Shown here one piece after another: positions 6,880 through 15,262 of a stretch of DNA of 21,608 nt. Positions within the stretch are counted from its first letter, which is position 1, and each line of letters starts with the position of its first letter. The stretch lies in the IMG/VR virus record IMGVR_UViG_3300049846_001912, positions 1 through 21,608 of that record; one strand, written 5' to 3'. Source of the stretch: a virus. The translations under genes and the position numbers were made by a program. The notes beneath the pieces were generated by a model, which was not told where the DNA came from, did not search any database, and worked only from the letters and a program-made list of their open reading frames with translations.

Positions 6880-8730
6880 CTACTCTTTAACAATGTGTTT
6901 TTCAAGTATTTCGTCGTCAAGGAACGTACCCTTGTCGGCGTCTGACGACTCGGCGAGCACGGACGGCGTCCGTGACGGGGCGGTTCTGCCAAACTTTCGA
7001 TCAATTCCCTGCTTGATTTCCAACGACAATGGCGGCTTTCGACTTGGTTTACGAGTTTTTTCCATTGAATGGCGGGCAACCTGGTATCGCTCATCGTTAC
7101 CGAGAGGGTCACGACCTCGTGGGTGACTGTCTTGTCCATAGGTTGATCCCACTTTTGGTCGGCCCGGCCCCGCGGCTTCGCCCATTCCCGCAGGTGGGGC
7201 GCCACCGGCATCGTCCATTGGTGCCGATTCATCGACCGGTTCGAGATCCTGTGGATAGCCATACTTGGCCGGATCGGATTCACCGGCTTCAATGGTGTTC
7301 TGACGGAACGTACGCTTGACGTCATTGATGACCCCGGCACGTTGTTCGGCCATCTCATCCTTGCTGAAGTTGAAGACGTTTTCGTAGATCCAGTCCGACG
7401 AAATCAACTTCGTGGCTACGGCGTCCGATGCGGTCTGAATCTTTTCCTTCCACAAATTCAGCTTTTCCTGCTCGTAAATGGTCGATGGAATGGTCAAATT
7501 CAACTTGAAACTGACCAGTTCTTCATCGGTGAATCCCTGGGCATACAAATGGATAATGCCAATTTTATGCAATTCGGCAACGATGATGTCCTGTAGATGT
7601 TCGATGGTACGAGCGAATCGAACGTCTTCCGCGGCAAGAGTCAACTTACCGTTGGTTTCTTCGTCATATCCCAAGAATGGCTTCGGAATTTTCAACGCGG
7701 CCATCATACGATTACGAAGATATTCGATGTCTTCAATAGAATTGAATTCCAATCCACCAAGATTGGTGATTTCCGTACCAGAATCACCACCACGGACTGG
7801 AATATAGAAGTCTTCGAGGATGTTTTGCATATTGTATCGCAGATTGTAATCACCCGAGGACTGATCGATGAACGGCACTTTCTTCATCTTGTCCGCGATA
7901 CGTTGCATATAGGTTTCGATTTCGGCCGGTGGAATATTACCAATGTCTAACTTGATAACACGCTTTTCCGGGGCACGCATAATACGATGGATCAACATAG
8001 CATCTTCCATCAATGTCAGTTGCTTCCATGTACGACGTGCACCTTCGATGGCAGCACGACCATAGGGCAAGAAATTACTGTCCGACATAAGACGGAAATG
8101 GCAGATTTCATAGTTTTCGAACCGGACTTTCTTACCATTCATGCCCATGGTTTGGAAATACACATAGCGGGGGTTGTCCGGATCTTCCCCTTCCACTCGA
8201 ATCGTGTCATATACCGAGAGTGGCTGTGCGTTGATGATGCCGTACTTCTCGTTGATTTCCAAGAACAAGAATGCATCACCGTACTTGCACATATTGCGAA
8301 CCCACGGTCGCAGATTGAACTGAATGTTCAGAATGTCAAAGAACAGGTTGTGTAGAATTTCCTTGACCTTCTCATCTTCACACTCGACCGTCAATACCTC
8401 GCCATATTCGTTCTTCAGCGTGGATTCATCCGCGTAAATATCCAATGCGGCATTGATGATGGGGTCGTTATCCATAATGTCATACTCGCGAAACAACATG
8501 ATACGTTGTGTCTGATATGCCATGTTGAGTCCGTACTGGTTGGACAATGAGTTGCCCATTCCTGACGAACTGAAGATTCGGCTATATCGATCCTTGTACG
8601 CATTGGACATATACGACTGGATGAAATCCGTATCTGCCACTTTCAACTGCTTACCACCAGTATGTCGAACCACTACACCGGTAGAGAACAGTTTTCGGAG
8701 TCGTTGAAATAGATTACCGCGTTCGGCCAT
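6880..8730 (-). CDS. 20: Portal (head-tail vertex) protein, T4 gp20-like
   Basis: This 616-residue protein should form the dodecameric ring that starts head assembly and serves as the DNA channel. T4 gp20 features: REYDIMDNDPIINAALDIYADE (79-102), NMCKYGDAFLFLE in the wing, the strongly conserved MEDAMLIHRIMRAPEKRVIK and LDIGNIP stretch (241-267), LEDFYIPVRGG-DSGTEITNL (305-324) and the stem/crown helices after IEYLRNRMMAALKIPKPFLGY (336-355). The C-terminal 120 residues are a Pro/Gly-rich, then basic, low-complexity tail that I do not recognise from T4. The stop is TAG at 6880. The SD before the ATG is weak (TGGA). Unlike in T4, the gene follows terminase directly, with no sheath or tube genes between. 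Confidence 0.95.
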   Translation of the reverse strand: MAERGNLFQRLRKLFSTGVVVRHTGGKQLKVADTDFIQSYMSNAYKDRYSRIFSSSGMGNSLSNQYGLNMAYQTQRIMLFREYDIMDNDPIINAALDIYADESTLKNEYGEVLTVECEDEKVKEILHNLFFDILNIQFNLRPWVRNMCKYGDAFLFLEINEKYGIINAQPLSVYDTIRVEGEDPDNPRYVYFQTMGMNGKKVRFENYEICHFRLMSDSNFLPYGRAAIEGARRTWKQLTLMEDAMLIHRIMRAPEKRVIKLDIGNIPPAEIETYMQRIADKMKKVPFIDQSSGDYNLRYNMQNILEDFYIPVRGGDSGTEITNLGGLEFNSIEDIEYLRNRMMAALKIPKPFLGYDEETNGKLTLAAEDVRFARTIEHLQDIIVAELHKIGIIHLYAQGFTDEELVSFKLNLTIPSTIYEQEKLNLWKEKIQTASDAVATKLISSDWIYENVFNFSKDEMAEQRAGVINDVKRTFRQNTIEAGESDPAKYGYPQDLEPVDESAPMDDAGGAPPAGMGEAAGPGRPKVGSTYGQDSHPRGRDPLGNDERYQVARHSMEKTRKPSRKPPLSLEIKQGIDRKFGRTAPSRTPSVLAESSDADKGTFLDDEILEKHIVKE

Positions 8731-8799: not shown

Positions 8800-10419
8800 T
8801 TACAACAACCACCGAAAATCTTCATCGGTTCCGTCGGCCAGTGGCATCTTGTATGGATCACTCATTCCGTTACCTGGCGTATAAACGGCGTCATAGGTAT
8901 GTACCTTATTGATCTTGTCCAATGAGAGCCGTGTGTATTCAAGACCCCGTTGGTGGACCTGTAGTGCAGTATCTCGAACCCATAGGCCGATACAAAAGGA
9001 CATCACCAAATCGTCATTGTAGTTTTCAGCGGCTTGAGGCTTTCCATTTTCCCAAATAAACGTCTGCAATTCGTCCAATAATCGACCCGAACGAATAATG
9101 ACTTGGGTATCTCGCATGTACTGGTCCAACTTGGAAATGATTAATGGACGCGTTCGAATGGATGTGGTGAATCCGGCGATGGACTTCTTTTCCAACCGAT
9201 TCAATTTATTGGAACGAATTTCATTCGGATCCAAATATTTCAAATCTTCGGTCATGTAGAACAGATTCTTGTACCCACGTTCGATGACCGTTTGGATAGT
9301 GGCCCATCCGACATTTGCGTTTTCAATGATCAGTAGTGCGTCATTGTATTCCGTTGCAATCGCAATCAACAAATGGCCAAAGTCCGTGGTGGACAGCCGA
9401 CCTTTGTATTCCGCTACTTGTGTACAGGTCTCCACGTCGATGACGTGGAACGCAGAATAGTCGCCGGAGTCGGAATTTTCACCGCGGCCGACGTCGGCAC
9501 ACACGATATAGCTTCGTGTATAATTAGGCAGTTCCCATACGAATACATCGCCGCCGGGCCCTTTCTTCAAAATCGGGTCTGCTCGATATGTCTTGTTGTA
9601 AAATTCAATAAGATCGCCATCAATGACCGTATTACCAGAACCAAGGAAATCTGCGTCGTATTCTTGACGAGCTTTTCGTGGGTCCATGATGGTATCTTGC
9701 AGGGCACGCCATTCTGGGGACCGGTTCGGATCGTTTCGCCAATCCAATTTCAACGGGAACATGACTTCGCCGCCGGGATCACGGCCGACGAATTCTTCCG
9801 CTTCCACATATTTCTTGTGGAAAAAGCCACCGATACCGTTCGGCGTAGAAATGATGATGGCCCGACCACCCGTAGACAACGTAGCCTGAGCAGATGTCCA
9901 AATTTCATTGGCATTTTTGATGTGCGCCGCTTCGTCGATGATTAGCAACGAAGCTGCTTCAGAACGGGCCGAATCTTCCGAAGCTGACAGAGCTTTAACC
10001 TGTGATCCATTCTTCAGTCGCATGCTCAATTTGTTGTTTTCCGTCACCGGTACCTGCAACCAGACCGGTAGATTGTCAAACGCGAATCGAATCTTCGTTA
10101 CAATGTTCTTAGCGGTTTCTTGTTTCGTGGCAATGATAACGATGTTCTTGTCTCGATGGAACAACATCAACCACAACGTATGCATGGATACCAGTGTAGA
10201 GAATCCAATCTGACGGCCCTTCAGTACAATGGTGTACTTCTTTTGCTTGAACGTTTCGAGTGCGTCTTTTTGATATGGATAGAGATTGAATAGAAATCGA
10301 CCTTTCTGTGCGTGTTGAATCATTGCATATTTCTGCATGAAGTACGCTTCATCTGTCGCACACTTGACGTACTCGGTACGAATCATATCCTTGAGGTTGA
10401 TTTTCTGTGTGTCGGACAT
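8800..10419 (-). CDS. 17: Terminase large subunit (packaging ATPase and nuclease), T4 gp17-like
   Basis: This 539-residue motor pumps DNA into the prohead and cuts concatemers. ATPase motifs: variant Walker A KGRQIGFST (67-75), Walker B LLIIDEAAH (158-166, D162/E163) and coupling motif STPNG (191-195). The RNase H-like nuclease domain shows CADVGRGENSDSGDYSAF with D309, IIENANVGW with E366, and NYNDDLVMSF with D469/D470. The usual P-loop lysine before the S/T is replaced by Phe73; Lys67 upstream of RQ may substitute, as in other large terminases with displaced basic residues. Length is somewhat below T4 gp17 (610 aa). The gene starts 3 bp after the preceding gene. No small terminase gene is in the window. 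Confidence 0.95.
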   Translation of the reverse strand: MSDTQKINLKDMIRTEYVKCATDEAYFMQKYAMIQHAQKGRFLFNLYPYQKDALETFKQKKYTIVLKGRQIGFSTLVSMHTLWLMLFHRDKNIVIIATKQETAKNIVTKIRFAFDNLPVWLQVPVTENNKLSMRLKNGSQVKALSASEDSARSEAASLLIIDEAAHIKNANEIWTSAQATLSTGGRAIIISTPNGIGGFFHKKYVEAEEFVGRDPGGEVMFPLKLDWRNDPNRSPEWRALQDTIMDPRKARQEYDADFLGSGNTVIDGDLIEFYNKTYRADPILKKGPGGDVFVWELPNYTRSYIVCADVGRGENSDSGDYSAFHVIDVETCTQVAEYKGRLSTTDFGHLLIAIATEYNDALLIIENANVGWATIQTVIERGYKNLFYMTEDLKYLDPNEIRSNKLNRLEKKSIAGFTTSIRTRPLIISKLDQYMRDTQVIIRSGRLLDELQTFIWENGKPQAAENYNDDLVMSFCIGLWVRDTALQVHQRGLEYTRLSLDKINKVHTYDAVYTPGNGMSDPYKMPLADGTDEDFRWLL

Positions 10420-10422
10420 AGA

Positions 10423-11067
10423 TTATTTCCGGTTATTGAACCACACGACCGCGCCGGCGGTTCCTAAGATACCAATTCCAAATGCAGTTTCTGCACTGAT
10501 ATGGGGAAAGATCTTCAGAAATGGCTTCGGTTTCGGTGGCTTTGGCCAATTGATGATGACCTTTCGCAGACTATCACGATCAGTAGTCATATAGGACAAG
10601 CTTAGTCGAATATCTCGTAATTCCTTGACGCGTGTGGTATCACGAGAGACTAATGAATCACGAAGTACGGACAACGTATCGATTTCGGTCTTCAATCCAT
10701 TGATCAACAGTTGTGCATCAGCACATTCCGGTGGTAATGGTCCAATTGCCACTTCCAGACTATCGTTTTGTGTTCGAAGATTGGATACGGACGCTTGCAA
10801 TCGATTGATGGTAACCGTTTGTCGTTGTGCAATTCGTGCCATCGAATCCGCACGGGCCGTTGATCGTGCTTCGAGTCGTTTCAAACTATCCGACCGTTGT
10901 AGTGCTGGTTTGACCACGGTGTCCTGATACGCGGTGAACGTCTTGTTGTACTCGGCAATCAAATCCCGTTGCTTTAGTGCAATACCAAAACACGATACCG
11001 CCATAATCAACACGATACCGGCTACGCCGAGGAGTAAGGTTTTTAGTGGTAACGTAATTTGTTTCAT
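10423..11067 (-). CDS. Membrane-anchored coiled-coil protein, possible i-spanin-like, function unknown
   Basis: The 214-residue product has an N-terminal membrane helix (LLLGVAGIVLIMAVSCFGIAL, about 11-31, given in part), a long predicted coiled coil (about 35-150, rich in Arg/Gln/Leu/Asp with few Gly), a short Pro/Lys stretch (WPKPPKPKPFLKIF) and a second hydrophobic segment at the extreme C-terminus (AFGIGILGTAGAVVWFNN). N-TM plus periplasmic coiled coil is the layout of inner-membrane spanin subunits, but a second C-terminal helix is unusual and no o-spanin lipobox ORF was found nested in it. A structural or DNA-injection role is also possible. Its ATG forms an ATGA overlap with the zinc-ribbon gene, so the two are probably translationally coupled. 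Confidence 0.7.
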   Translation of the reverse strand: MKQITLPLKTLLLGVAGIVLIMAVSCFGIALKQRDLIAEYNKTFTAYQDTVVKPALQRSDSLKRLEARSTARADSMARIAQRQTVTINRLQASVSNLRTQNDSLEVAIGPLPPECADAQLLINGLKTEIDTLSVLRDSLVSRDTTRVKELRDIRLSLSYMTTDRDSLRKVIINWPKPPKPKPFLKIFPHISAETAFGIGILGTAGAVVWFNNRK

Positions 11068-11666
11068 GTGGCCGCCTGTTCATCAAGTTCTTCTTTGGTG
11101 ATTTGTTCCAATCGAGCTTTGCACATTTCGATATCTGCTCGAACTTCGTCAAATGTACCTTCGAATAGAGATTTGGATGCGATTTCTTCCCACCGACCAT
11201 CACCATAATGCTGTTGTGGTGTACGGAAGGTTCGAATGTAATCTTCATGTTCCTGAATCTTTTCATTGAGAAACGCCTTTTCATTCTCTCGCATGATGTG
11301 ACGTTCGTATGCATCAAATGTACCATCAAGTTTCATTTGGGTGTGCCATTTCAACGTGCACTCCATACAAAACCCATGCAATCGATAAAACTTGTCATCC
11401 AATCGATGATTCATGGACTTGGTACATTTCGGACACCAATACGGAGTTCGTAATCCTTCGAATTTACTGATCGATTGGACAATGCCGTTGCGTCGAGTCC
11501 ATTTCTTTCCATTATGATCCTCCCACACTTCATTTTCCTTTCGATCGGCGTGGATGGACTTCGTATCGGTAACAGCAACGGTTATTTTGTCGAACTTCTT
11601 ATCAGTTCGTTGGATCAAATCCTTTCGAATACGATCTAACTGTTGCATCTTCTTCAGATCACTCAT
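11064..11666 (-). CDS. Zinc-ribbon protein, function unknown
   Basis: This 200-residue protein has one clear Cys4 zinc ribbon: CPKC (C78, C81), then an 18-residue loop and CMEC (C100, C103). Just before it lies a conserved-looking segment WEDHNGKKWTRRNGIVQS. N- and C-terminal parts are charged helices. Such ribbons usually bind nucleic acid or a protein partner. The ATGA overlap with the upstream nucleotidyltransferase gene and GAGG 6 nt before the ATG indicate coupled translation, so a partnership with that enzyme is an attractive inference. No enzyme motif was seen. I do not recognise the family with certainty. Confidence 0.75.
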   Translation of the reverse strand: MSDLKKMQQLDRIRKDLIQRTDKKFDKITVAVTDTKSIHADRKENEVWEDHNGKKWTRRNGIVQSISKFEGLRTPYWCPKCTKSMNHRLDDKFYRLHGFCMECTLKWHTQMKLDGTFDAYERHIMRENEKAFLNEKIQEHEDYIRTFRTPQQHYGDGRWEEIASKSLFEGTFDEVRADIEMCKARLEQITKEELDEQAAT

Positions 11667-14600
11667 TTAGAACCTCGTTTGTCTATGAATCGTCGTGCTA
11701 CTTTGTGTGCTGGGTGGGCCGGTGGATATTTCAATGCCGTTTTGACCAGAATTTCATTATCCGTTTCTGGATTTTTGATTGTTGCATTATCGATTGGGTC
11801 TTGTTGAACCGGTGGGGCATCCGACTGGAACGTAGGAACGGCCGTATCGGTCGTGGGTTCATCGATAACGGATATATCCAATTCACTTGGGGGAATTTGT
11901 TTGGTCTTTTGGATGCTATCTTTGATCGCCGCGACGATTTCCGATCGTTGATTCTTGAATCGGAATGACGGCGAGAGAAGCTTTTCGTACATTTTTTCGA
12001 AAGTATCAACTTGATCCCACGTTACACCCTTACCGAACAACATTTGTGTCATTTCATCAGGATCGGACGTCACCAATTTCTTGGATAACGGTACTCGCTT
12101 ACCCTTTTCGTCCATTTTGTACGTGACCAGTTCCAGTCCATTCTTATTGTCGATTTGGAACTTCTGTCGTACCCCCTCTTGATCGGTCGGGAATGAGACA
12201 CGACTGAACGTGGCAATAGGAATCATGTTTCTGGCCACCGCCTTGTGCATACTACCGGCGCCAGCACCAGATTGGAACTTCTCCATCCACGGACGATTAC
12301 CTACAAATACATCCAATTGAACATATCCTGGTACATTCTGCGGTTGGCCGTTTGCATCTATTGCATTCATCGGACGGCCCGTGTCATCGGTCAACGGCAC
12401 CAGAATGCTGAATTGATTCAGTCCTGATTGTACTCGATGTTCGATGTTTTTGCCCGTCAATTGATGTTGAACCGACTGATAGAATTCGGGTGTGCCGTAT
12501 TGCGAACCCAACAATGTTGACAGATCGGATTTATCGATGGCAACGTCAATGTCACCCAAATACGGCTTCGTTTTGTTACCGACGATGCTATGTGGAACGG
12601 TAAGACCGGCGGCCGCCAACCCACGTTGAACGACCGATCCGAGGTGCTGTTGCGGCACCACGGAATTGACCTTATCGAATTGATTGCCACCTTCCATCAG
12701 TGTCTCGCCCAACGCAGATTTTGCAGCTTTGTGTGCGGGGTGATTGGCCGGATATTTCAACGCCGTTTTGACCAGAATCTTGTTCTTGGTTTCCGGATTG
12801 ATGATTCGCTGATTCAACTGACGTTGTAGCTTTGGAGACATCACGTCTGCGTCGACATCGGTCTTTTTCGTTGTATCGTCTACCGATTTTGGTGCCGAAA
12901 GACCTGACGATGGTTCCTTTCGTGGTTCCTTCACACCCGTGGCCAAATCGTTCGCACTGGGTGCAGGTTTGCCCGCCGGTTGCAGTTTGTACGTATAAAT
13001 ACCAACGATTTGATTCACCGGGGCAAACGCACCAGTGAATTTCATCAACTTTCCGTTGAATGTGAATACCAATCCTTCGGCCGGTGCAATCTTATCAATG
13101 CCAACCGTGGACAACGTTCGAAGTTCTTTCTTCATCTTATTGACGTATTCAGGATTGTTGCTCTTCTGAATTGCATCGATGGCATTCTTGAGCTTAGCTT
13201 TCAATTTTTGATCGGTGCCATCGTTGCCCGCGACGAAGTTGGTAACTCGATTCATAGCGTCCGCGCCCACATTAAGTACAACGGATTTGATAGGCGAGAT
13301 AATATCGGATTGAATATCCTTGTAATTTGCGTCGATTGTACGAAATGCAGCATTTTTCTCTGGATCTTTAATACTTCGAATGTTGAACGATTTGTCACCA
13401 AATGCCCATCGGCGAACTAGTCCATCCGTTTCTTCCGGGGTCCACGAATGGCCGGTAGATTGTAATTCTTGTAGCCATGCACGAGATAAGAAATCACCAA
13501 CCGTATCGGTGTCGGATAGACCCGATGATGATGCAATTTGTGACAATTGATCAATGTAGTGTTGTGCACGATGTTGGTCTTCTGGTGTGGTTTTGAACTG
13601 TACTGGATTCTTGCCCACGATTTTGTACTTGGATCCCGATTCACCACCGGCCGCGATGATATTCTGCGCCAGCAAATCCGCAGCATCCTTATCAATATCA
13701 ATTGGATTGCCGGTCGCCGGGTCGAATTCACGAACACTCAACAACATAATCTGATTGGTGTTGTATGGAATCGTATTGGGTAGGTCTTTGTTCAAAATTT
13801 CACCCATGACAAAGTTACGACCGTTTCCAAATATACGATTCAACTCGGCAGGATCCATTTTTTGAACGGCCGATTCTACATCTTTAGCTGCTGCACGGAA
13901 TGATGATGCAACCGTATCCCCGTGACCGGCAAAGAAATCACCAAACTCATCTGCCGTCATAGCCGATTGGCCACCATTCTTAGTATGTTGTGTGTTGCGT
14001 GCGAACTTTACCTGACCGTCTTTGATGGTGAACATGATGTTCTGTCCATCTGTTTTTTCCGTCGCGGACTTACCCAAGTCCCCCACCAATGCTTGATTGG
14101 TGAGGTTCTTAAGATCCCCAAAGGTCATATTCGGATCCTCGTATGGATGTTCGATATGACTCTTTGGTGCCGCTTCGAGAATCAGACTGTGCTCAATCCG
14201 ATTCGAAATAATCGCCCACGTTTTTCCCAGCAAAGTCTCCGACAAGTACGTACCCAAATTCACAATCATTTCATCTTTGGTTTGGGATTTTTCTCGTTCC
14301 TTGTATCGAATATTGACTTCAGGATCCTTCACTCGATTCGGTCGATCCACACCCGCGGCCTTCATTTCTCGTTCCGCCGCTTTATATACAGGCTTCCATC
14401 GAGGGTATTTCAACGCGGACTTGACCTGGATTTCACGACCGGTGTCTGGATTTACAATCATTCGATCCATTGGTGGTGTGTCGTCGGTTTTTTCATCATC
14501 TTGTGTTGCGGGTTTTTCCGCCGGGGCCTGTGTCGGTTCGGCTTTGGTTCGAACGCCAGAACCTTTATCCGTTGCTTTGGTTTTAGCAGGACTCGATGAT

Positions 14601-15262
14601 TTTTCAGGCTCGGCAGTAGACACATCCGATGATTTCTGTACCAACATATTGAAAATTGTATCATCATCTTTGCCATACAATTTTCGGAAGATTTCCTTCT
14701 TCTTCTCTTCAGGTACCTCGGACGATCCCATAACCGCTCGGATCTTTGTGCCGGAATTCATACCGTCATCATCGATCAACTCTGGTGCAACGACATAATA
14801 TCCCGCATCTTTCCATCCTTCGAGAGGAAGATCGTCGATATAATGTCGAAAATACTTGCCACCACTCAGTCGTGCTGCATCCTTGCTGGACACGGCAGAC
14901 ACGTATGCGGTAGTAGCAGGATCGAACTGTGCAAGAATCTCCACAGGGTTGTACGGACTCTTGACCTGTTGTATTTTGTCAGGATCGATATCGAACATCG
15001 TGGTCATTACTTGCTTTTTTTCTTGGAAGTTCAGTGGGCTTCGGCCAGGTTCCGTCTTGTCGGATGTACCGATGAACACATTTTCCTTTCCAAACTTATC
15101 GACCAAGGCTTTGTATACACTGGCGTGGCCGGCGTGAAACGGCTGAAATCGGCCGGAATACACCGCGATCACCCGCTTTACTCCTTTGTCTTCTCGCAGC
15201 ATCTTCTTCAACTCGAACGCGAGTTCGCCGGCGAGCCGATTCGATTCAAATGTTAAATCCAT
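11663..15262 (-). CDS. Three-domain nucleotidyltransferase fusion (HxGH NTase + KxDG ligase + pol-beta NTase)
   Basis: This 1199-residue protein contains three separate nucleotidyl-transfer signatures. Residues 28-206: NMN/cytidylyltransferase-like fold with GRFQPFHAGH (HxGH = H43-H46) and the partner motif NSGTKIRA (169-176). Residues 370-765: covalent ligase/Rnl2-like domain with motif I EKTDGQN (nucleophile K403), R422 after KFA, motif III MGEI (E488), motif IV EGLVF (E729) and motif V KLMKFTG (K738/K741); the III-IV interval is unusually long (about 240 residues). Residues 857-1113: pol-beta-type domain with GGNQF, GDIDVAID (D904, D906) and QLDVFV (D984). Copies of NPxT...ILVKTALKYP flank or separate the domains. 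The likely role is RNA/DNA end repair, tRNA repair or nucleotide/NAD metabolism; this cannot be fixed from sequence. SD before the ATG is poor. It follows the fibre cluster and overlaps the zinc-ribbon gene by ATGA. Confidence 0.85.
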   Translation of the reverse strand: MDLTFESNRLAGELAFELKKMLREDKGVKRVIAVYSGRFQPFHAGHASVYKALVDKFGKENVFIGTSDKTEPGRSPLNFQEKKQVMTTMFDIDPDKIQQVKSPYNPVEILAQFDPATTAYVSAVSSKDAARLSGGKYFRHYIDDLPLEGWKDAGYYVVAPELIDDDGMNSGTKIRAVMGSSEVPEEKKKEIFRKLYGKDDDTIFNMLVQKSSDVSTAEPEKSSSPAKTKATDKGSGVRTKAEPTQAPAEKPATQDDEKTDDTPPMDRMIVNPDTGREIQVKSALKYPRWKPVYKAAEREMKAAGVDRPNRVKDPEVNIRYKEREKSQTKDEMIVNLGTYLSETLLGKTWAIISNRIEHSLILEAAPKSHIEHPYEDPNMTFGDLKNLTNQALVGDLGKSATEKTDGQNIMFTIKDGQVKFARNTQHTKNGGQSAMTADEFGDFFAGHGDTVASSFRAAAKDVESAVQKMDPAELNRIFGNGRNFVMGEILNKDLPNTIPYNTNQIMLLSVREFDPATGNPIDIDKDAADLLAQNIIAAGGESGSKYKIVGKNPVQFKTTPEDQHRAQHYIDQLSQIASSSGLSDTDTVGDFLSRAWLQELQSTGHSWTPEETDGLVRRWAFGDKSFNIRSIKDPEKNAAFRTIDANYKDIQSDIISPIKSVVLNVGADAMNRVTNFVAGNDGTDQKLKAKLKNAIDAIQKSNNPEYVNKMKKELRTLSTVGIDKIAPAEGLVFTFNGKLMKFTGAFAPVNQIVGIYTYKLQPAGKPAPSANDLATGVKEPRKEPSSGLSAPKSVDDTTKKTDVDADVMSPKLQRQLNQRIINPETKNKILVKTALKYPANHPAHKAAKSALGETLMEGGNQFDKVNSVVPQQHLGSVVQRGLAAAGLTVPHSIVGNKTKPYLGDIDVAIDKSDLSTLLGSQYGTPEFYQSVQHQLTGKNIEHRVQSGLNQFSILVPLTDDTGRPMNAIDANGQPQNVPGYVQLDVFVGNRPWMEKFQSGAGAGSMHKAVARNMIPIATFSRVSFPTDQEGVRQKFQIDNKNGLELVTYKMDEKGKRVPLSKKLVTSDPDEMTQMLFGKGVTWDQVDTFEKMYEKLLSPSFRFKNQRSEIVAAIKDSIQKTKQIPPSELDISVIDEPTTDTAVPTFQSDAPPVQQDPIDNATIKNPETDNEILVKTALKYPPAHPAHKVARRFIDKRGSK
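11696..11779 (-). repeat. NPxT/KYP motif copy 3 (residues 1162-1189)
   Basis: Encodes IKNPETDNEILVKTALKYP followed by PAHPAHKVA at the extreme C-terminus. ILVKTALKYPxxHPAHK is shared exactly with copy 2 apart from the two variable positions. Confidence 0.8.
12722..12805 (-). repeat. NPxT/KYP motif copy 2 (residues 820-847)
   Basis: Encodes IINPETKNKILVKTALKYP followed by ANHPAHKAA, between the ligase and pol-beta-like domains. Its DNA is visibly similar to copy 3, including the shared block GCCGTTTTGACCAGAAT on the plus strand, which points to a within-gene duplication. Confidence 0.8.
14375..14458 (-). repeat. NPxT/KYP motif copy 1 (residues 269-296)
   Basis: Encodes IVNPDTGREIQVKSALKYP plus the following WKPVYKAA, between the HxGH domain and the ligase domain. 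This copy retains the NPDTGREI form and may be closest to the ancestral sequence. The NPxTGRxI core resembles short adaptor motifs seen in some viral proteins (for example the 2-cysteine adaptor), but the Cys residues are absent. Confidence 0.75.

Follow-up and report, generated by a model that had tools for sequence, protein, structure and literature searches.

We analyzed a 21.6-kb IMG/VR virus fragment (21,608 nucleotides, hereafter the window) in which an ORF of 1199 aa, read without interruption over its full length, lies on the minus strand among T4-like head genes. The gene order on this strand is fiber genes, the fusion gene, genes for two proteins of 200 aa (CxxC/CxxC) and 214 aa, terminase, portal and protease.

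11663..15262, minus strand: fusion ORF (P0001), 1199 aa, ATG at 15262, with three catalytic-type domains and three repeats
11064..11666, minus strand: 200-aa zinc-finger-like protein with two CxxC pairs, a conserved partner gene overlapping the end of the fusion gene
10423-11067, minus strand: 214-aa protein, coiled coil and a hydrophobic stretch at the N terminus
8800..10419, minus strand: terminase large subunit
6880..8730, minus strand: portal protein

Within the fusion protein, the following parts were assigned.

14645..15178, minus strand: HIGH/NMNAT-like nucleotidyltransferase domain, aa 29-206 (Pfam PF01467, PHROG 395 and conservation; NCBIfam NMNAT models below cut-off)
15125-15154, minus strand: GRFQPFHAGH motif of the NMNAT-like domain, aa 37-46
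14738-14755, minus strand: SGTKIR motif of the NMNAT-like domain, aa 170-175
14330..14476, minus strand: adaptor-like repeat 1, aa 263-311 (IVNPDTGREIQVKSALKYP...)
12938..14197, minus strand: ligase-type (covalent nucleotidyltransferase) domain, aa 356-775 (alignments, residue invariance, AlphaFold2 model, Foldseek)
14054-14056, minus strand: ligase K403 codon (KTDG, aa 403-406)
13799-13801, minus strand: ligase E488 codon
13064-13078, minus strand: ligase EGLVF, aa 729-733 (E729)
13040-13042, minus strand: ligase K741 codon (KLMK ends at K741)
12659..12811, minus strand: adaptor-like repeat 2, aa 818-868
11888..12694, minus strand: pol-beta-type nucleotidyltransferase domain, aa 857-1125 (profile, alignment, model, Foldseek)
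12536-12556, minus strand: pol-beta GDIDVAI, aa 903-909 (D904, D906)
12311-12313, minus strand: pol-beta D984 codon, in QLDVF
11666..11800, minus strand: adaptor-like repeat 3, aa 1155-1199

The first-pass annotation had described one protein with three nucleotidyl-transfer domains, and this description holds: homologues support each domain, and structure prediction also supports the last two. The motifs that it quoted (HxGH, SGTKIR, KTDG, E488, EGLVF, KLMK, GDIDVAI and QLDVF) are all present in the ORF, and the three sites are apparently intact, as it had claimed, with ligase and pol-beta catalytic residues that are invariant among relatives. The three-site fusion is real, and it is rare, not unique. 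No paper describing it was found in a literature search with the terms used.

Gene neighborhood

The genes downstream of the fusion are its conserved neighbors. The zinc-finger gene comes next after the fusion in 167 of the 168 relatives whose sequence extends far enough, the terminase lies downstream in 114 of 115, and the portal in 69 of 71. An earlier link to the fiber genes, drawn by analogy with T4 gp63, proved accidental, and the fiber-attachment analogy was rejected because fiber proximity is not a conserved feature. The CxxC/CxxC protein, 150-230 aa long among homologues, has a constant position between the fusion gene and the terminase; it could act as a partner of the fusion protein or be a small terminase subunit that has gone unrecognized. 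The closest relatives likewise keep the 214-aa protein at its place between the CxxC gene and the terminase. A search for the T4 late promoter TATAAATA gave two matches, both on the strand opposite to the gene and not above chance.

The three catalytic-type domains

The NMNAT-like domain belongs to the HIGH superfamily; it passes the Pfam CTP_transf_like (PF01467) gathering cut-off (22.8 bits against 21), matches PHROG 395 "cytidyltransferase" at 1e-12 and carries the HxGH and SxTxxR motifs. The S, T and R of the SGT..R motif are present in all 35 aligned relatives, and HxGH is rearranged in 4 of 34. At the level of the HIGH superfamily, this agrees with the earlier assignment to NMNAT/cytidylyltransferases. 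The NMN adenylyltransferase equivalogs (NadM, NadR and archaeal NMNAT) reached at best 28.8 bits against NCBIfam cut-offs of 127-449, so that an NMNAT activity is putative.

The ligase-type domain, with K403, R422, E488, E729 and K741 as its key residues, shows the motifs of the covalent nucleotidyltransferase (ligase/capping) superfamily in order, namely KxDG as motif I followed by Ia, III, IV and V. In the alignment of 35 relatives (which numbers residues one lower than P0001), all 35 share K, D and G in motif I, A-R-N in Ia, E in III, E-G plus F in IV, and K plus T in V. The AlphaFold2 model has a mean pLDDT of 87.7, and Foldseek against the PDB returned almost exclusively ligases with RNA ligases on top, although these matches are weak (best E 4.7e-4, the single match at E < 0.001; TM about 0.2). 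The nearest PDB folds are archaeal Rnl3-type and T4 Rnl1/Rnl2 ligases, all weak matches, with DNA ligases lower in the list. Against BFVD, "cytidyltransferase-like" phage proteins matched at TMq 0.87, followed by named viral matches that are mostly RNA ligases. We assign the domain as a ligase type because of its motif invariance and this consistent but weak fold match. Pfam searches of the window domain gave no match, no named ligase family was matched significantly by profile, and PDB sequence searches with the ligase profile gave chance matches only. Membership in the Rnl2 family, as first suggested, was rejected: Pfam RNA_ligase (PF09414) does not match the window protein and appears in one relative only (E 0.05), and the nearest folds, all weak, include Rnl3 and Rnl1 types as well. 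One relative weakly matches the adenylation domain of NAD-dependent DNA ligase (E 0.007).

Searched alone, the pol-beta-type domain had no database match, Pfam included, and PDB sequence searches with its profile gave chance matches only. A large phage family (EGGN..GSTGKK..SGDxDLAxD..QxDFMF) emerged from a motif scan, and the profile built from it found the window domain at 2.2e-18 when this was the sole target and at 9.8e-14 in a set of 2027 ORFs; the pattern YLGDID[..]A hit one locus (L005), which is unrelated. Across 31 sequences, there is no variation at D904, D906 or D984. In the predicted model (pLDDT 79.6), the closest folds are DNA polymerase lambda/beta (E 1.2e-5, TMq 0.35), so that the G..DxD motif, the invariant third aspartate and the modeled fold point to a polymerase beta-type domain. 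This part of the first-pass annotation was upheld, whereas the CCA-adding family that it named was not: neither CCA-adding (PF01743) nor RlaP (PF10127) models matched in Pfam, and with Pol lambda/beta as the nearest solved folds, we rejected CCA-family membership for the window's own domain. Of the checks that the annotation had proposed for these domains, structure prediction yielded models with ligase and pol-beta matches in Foldseek, while profile searches left both domains without a Pfam match.

A widespread family of cassette proteins

A single-sequence scan of viral contigs with P0001 found no relative; the later profile scan did recover relatives. In phages, tblastn with the ligase-type domain retrieved three records, two huge phages and the Microcystis phage Mel-JY01 (WWT39297), and in LR756500, one of the huge phages, neighboring genes encode the NMNAT and the ligase-type domain separately. 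A profile from these relatives found at least 552 relatives in IMG/VR, and a second query at least 596. The set used here comprises 173 ORFs in 174 loci, with 62 non-redundant complete proteins of 421-1907 aa. Among these 62, which were drawn from the 80 top-scoring loci per scan and are not a random sample, the ligase-type domain is accompanied by NMNAT in 58, a P-loop kinase in 21, an HNH-like stretch in 4, an AAT-like domain in 3, a ParB-like domain in 2, a CCA-adding enzyme in 2 and pol-beta in 1 (the window protein). The HNH-like label was given by eye and by homology among relatives, as Pfam gave no match.

The survey of domain architectures that had been suggested as a check thus confirmed the ligase-NMNAT fusion and placed the pol-beta cassette in only two further sampled proteins. 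One of these, L218, is a 5′-truncated protein of the order repeat-ligase-NMNAT-repeat-pol-beta-repeat. The other, L221 (521-3727, minus strand), combines pol-beta with two NMNAT domains, of which the first is degenerate (GEFQPFHQGH) and the second intact, and the ligase is cleanly absent. In L210 and L260, the NMNAT-ligase core at the same genomic spot is fused to a CCA-adding enzyme with GGAVRD, DFDLAT and RRDLTIN intact, and the L210 domain has matches in PHROG (tRNA nucleotidyltransferase, 1.6e-57) and in the PDB (1miv, 5.3e-31). The P-loop kinases carry Walker A and match AAA_33, zeta or, in some cases, PHROG polynucleotide kinase rather than the NadR kinase model; in L260 and L085 the kinase is a separate nearby gene. 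On sequence grounds, the family consists of cassette proteins, with lineage-specific cassettes added to a conserved NMNAT-like and ligase-type core, and the window protein is a rare three-site member of this widespread, uncharacterized family from aquatic phages. The ligase-type family is large, has no Pfam name and is annotated as "cytidyltransferase" from its other half alone. An AAT-like (acyl-CoA:6-APA acyltransferase/Ntn-hydrolase) cassette, which might be self-processing, precedes NMNAT-ligase in L085, L271, L274, L275, L276 and L233.

A repeat of ~35 aa (NPxTxxxIxVKTALKYPxxHPxHKxA) occurs in three copies between and after the window domains and at the same domain borders in relatives, flanking the pol-beta cassette in all three proteins that carry one. 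A single copy ends the 251-aa HAD-type phosphatase of L220 (13185-13937, minus strand), which matches PHROG polynucleotide kinase at 3e-8. We infer that the repeat may be an adaptor that marks cassettes and perhaps docks partners. It was not found in cultured phages. The L220 phosphatase gene lies within a head-gene cluster, and a HAD relative also occurs in L006 (17102-17659).

Putative function

Overall, we suggest that the window protein is built of modules and repairs nucleic-acid ends in a T4-like aquatic phage, with RNA (tRNA) as its most likely substrate; we hold this reading to be about evenly poised between right and wrong. The end-repair or tRNA-restoring role proposed at first pass is now the best-supported reading, because in relatives at the same spot the core is fused to a CCA-adding enzyme and often to a P-loop kinase. 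Repair of RNA ends is suggested because RNA ends are healed and sealed with a kinase, a phosphatase, a CCA-adding or pol-beta nucleotidyltransferase and a ligase, and tRNA is favored as the substrate because of the CCA-adding fusions. When host defense nucleases cut tRNA, the pol-beta cassette, replaced by a CCA-adding enzyme in two relatives, would restore the lost 3′ nucleotides, and the kinase and phosphatase, which relatives carry as fusions or as nearby genes, would tidy the RNA ends. The ligase domain would then self-adenylylate on K403, hand AMP to the 5′ phosphate and seal the break. The NMNAT-like domain might make or recycle NAD+ (or an ATP-linked cofactor) depleted by host defenses or consumed by the ligase; such built-in NAD/ATP chemistry, also raised in the first reading, is plausible. 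Location with the packaging genes suggests late synthesis and, as we infer, possibly packaging in the virion for injection. Exchangeable repair cassettes together with a fixed place beside the terminase make a testable case for phage RNA repair in a packaging gene set.

Several points count against RNA repair. The PDB matches of the ligase are weak, and the nearest folds of the modeled pol-beta domain are DNA repair polymerases. A place in the late packaging cluster would be unexpected for tRNA repair if the protein were not injected. Moreover, L221 keeps NMNAT and pol-beta without the ligase, and HxGH is not constant among relatives (rearranged in 4/34).

The main and serious rival, which we judge rather unlikely, is DNA nick or gap repair tied to packaging or entry, in which a Pol X-like gap filler and a ligase, with a kinase in relatives, make the genome continuous before or during terminase threading or just after injection. 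The invariant place beside terminase and portal would fit this role, as would the predicted closeness of the pol-beta domain to the gap-filling polymerases lambda and beta and the weak DNA ligase match of one relative (E 0.007); polynucleotide kinases and HNH-like stretches suit DNA too. However, CCA-adding enzymes are fused in two relatives, the nearest ligase folds are RNA ligases with DNA ligases further down the list, and no OB-fold or DNA-binding module was seen.

That the protein restores NAD+ against NAD-depleting defenses is less probable still. NMNAT, with a NadR-like kinase in relatives, would make NAD+, and the ligase-type domain would be an accessory AMP-transferring or NAD-binding module. 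The NMNAT-like domain is indeed the most constant partner, NadR joins an NMNAT domain with a P-loop kinase, and phages carry NadM/NadR NAD salvage (PMC9503650). Against this, the kinases match AAA_33, zeta or PHROG polynucleotide kinase and no NadR kinase model, the NCBIfam NMNAT equivalogs are far below cut-off (28 against 127-449 bits), and the invariant ligase residues and the CCA and pol-beta cassettes are left unexplained.

A further reading, which we regard as improbable, is a phage-wide, virion-delivered repair machine in which NMNAT supplies NAD+ to an RNA ligase of its own chain and returns NMN from self-adenylylation to NAD+, with repeat-flanked, exchangeable cassettes building 3′ ends and the repeat also recruiting the phosphatase. 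We know of no precedent for an RNA ligase that runs on NAD+ which it recycles itself. A structural role in fiber attachment or virion assembly with incidental enzyme sites, by analogy with T4 gp63, is very improbable: fiber genes adjoin the fusion in the window, but their proximity is not conserved and the catalytic residues are invariant over 35 relatives.

Relation to known systems

In phages, RlaP (RNA ligase-associated Pol-beta) and CCA enzymes have been described as working together with RNA ligases (PMC7824862). The sets that phages use for RNA repair (T4-type RNA ligase with polynucleotide kinase, RlaP and CCA enzymes) combine the same ligase, pol-beta nucleotidyltransferase, kinase and CCA functions. 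In contrast, the functions described here are fused in one chain or encoded together, have an NMNAT-like core and lie beside the terminase, and the window ligase and pol-beta domains have no profile match to known families. Polyvalent proteins are likewise mosaics of several enzymes, very large and encoded close to the packaging genes of phages (PMC5512222; PMC9503650), for which packaging in the virion for injection has been proposed (PMC5512222). A multi-enzyme mosaic architecture in a packaging context is found here as well, as are ParB-like domains in a few relatives. However, no metallopeptidase, ArdC or MuF hub was found in this family, which has a constant NMNAT-ligase core, and the 2H domains of polyvalent proteins, according to Iyer et al. 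2017 (PMC5512222), were never observed together with RNA ligases. The bifunctional NMN adenylyltransferases NadM and NadR also fuse a HIGH-superfamily NMNAT-like domain to another enzyme, but the partner here is a ligase-type domain, not Nudix, and the NMNAT-like domain falls below the NCBIfam cut-offs.

A parallel in sequenced phages is the cyanophage "cytitidyltransferase" with DUF6267 (PF19782), in which a HIGH nucleotidyltransferase is likewise paired with a K-x-D-G-containing domain (BFVD structure match E 1.6e-4). The two are fused in cyanophage S-PM2 (LN828717, 93485-95260; L215:43485-45260) and adjacent in many cyanophages, and the pair is fused or adjacent in > 500 phage records. Members of about 650 aa in the pol-beta phage family also carry DUF6267 behind pol-beta (4.9e-27). 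We do not claim homology between DUF6267 and the window ligase because comparing their profiles gave no significant match (E about 0.3-0.5), even if by eye the two agree in motif I and in the III/IV order. The window family nevertheless gives a lead on the function of this pair, which is present in hundreds of sequenced phages. DUF6267 shows KWDG, GDLL and EGxV in a ligase-like order. The same ligase fold as in the window protein (TMq 0.87) is already deposited in UniProt in two "Cytidyltransferase-like domain-containing protein" entries from uncultured Caudovirales, A0A6J5MCV5 and A0A6J5MBE6, which are 825 and 915 aa long against 1199 for the window protein and are named for the NMNAT half only.
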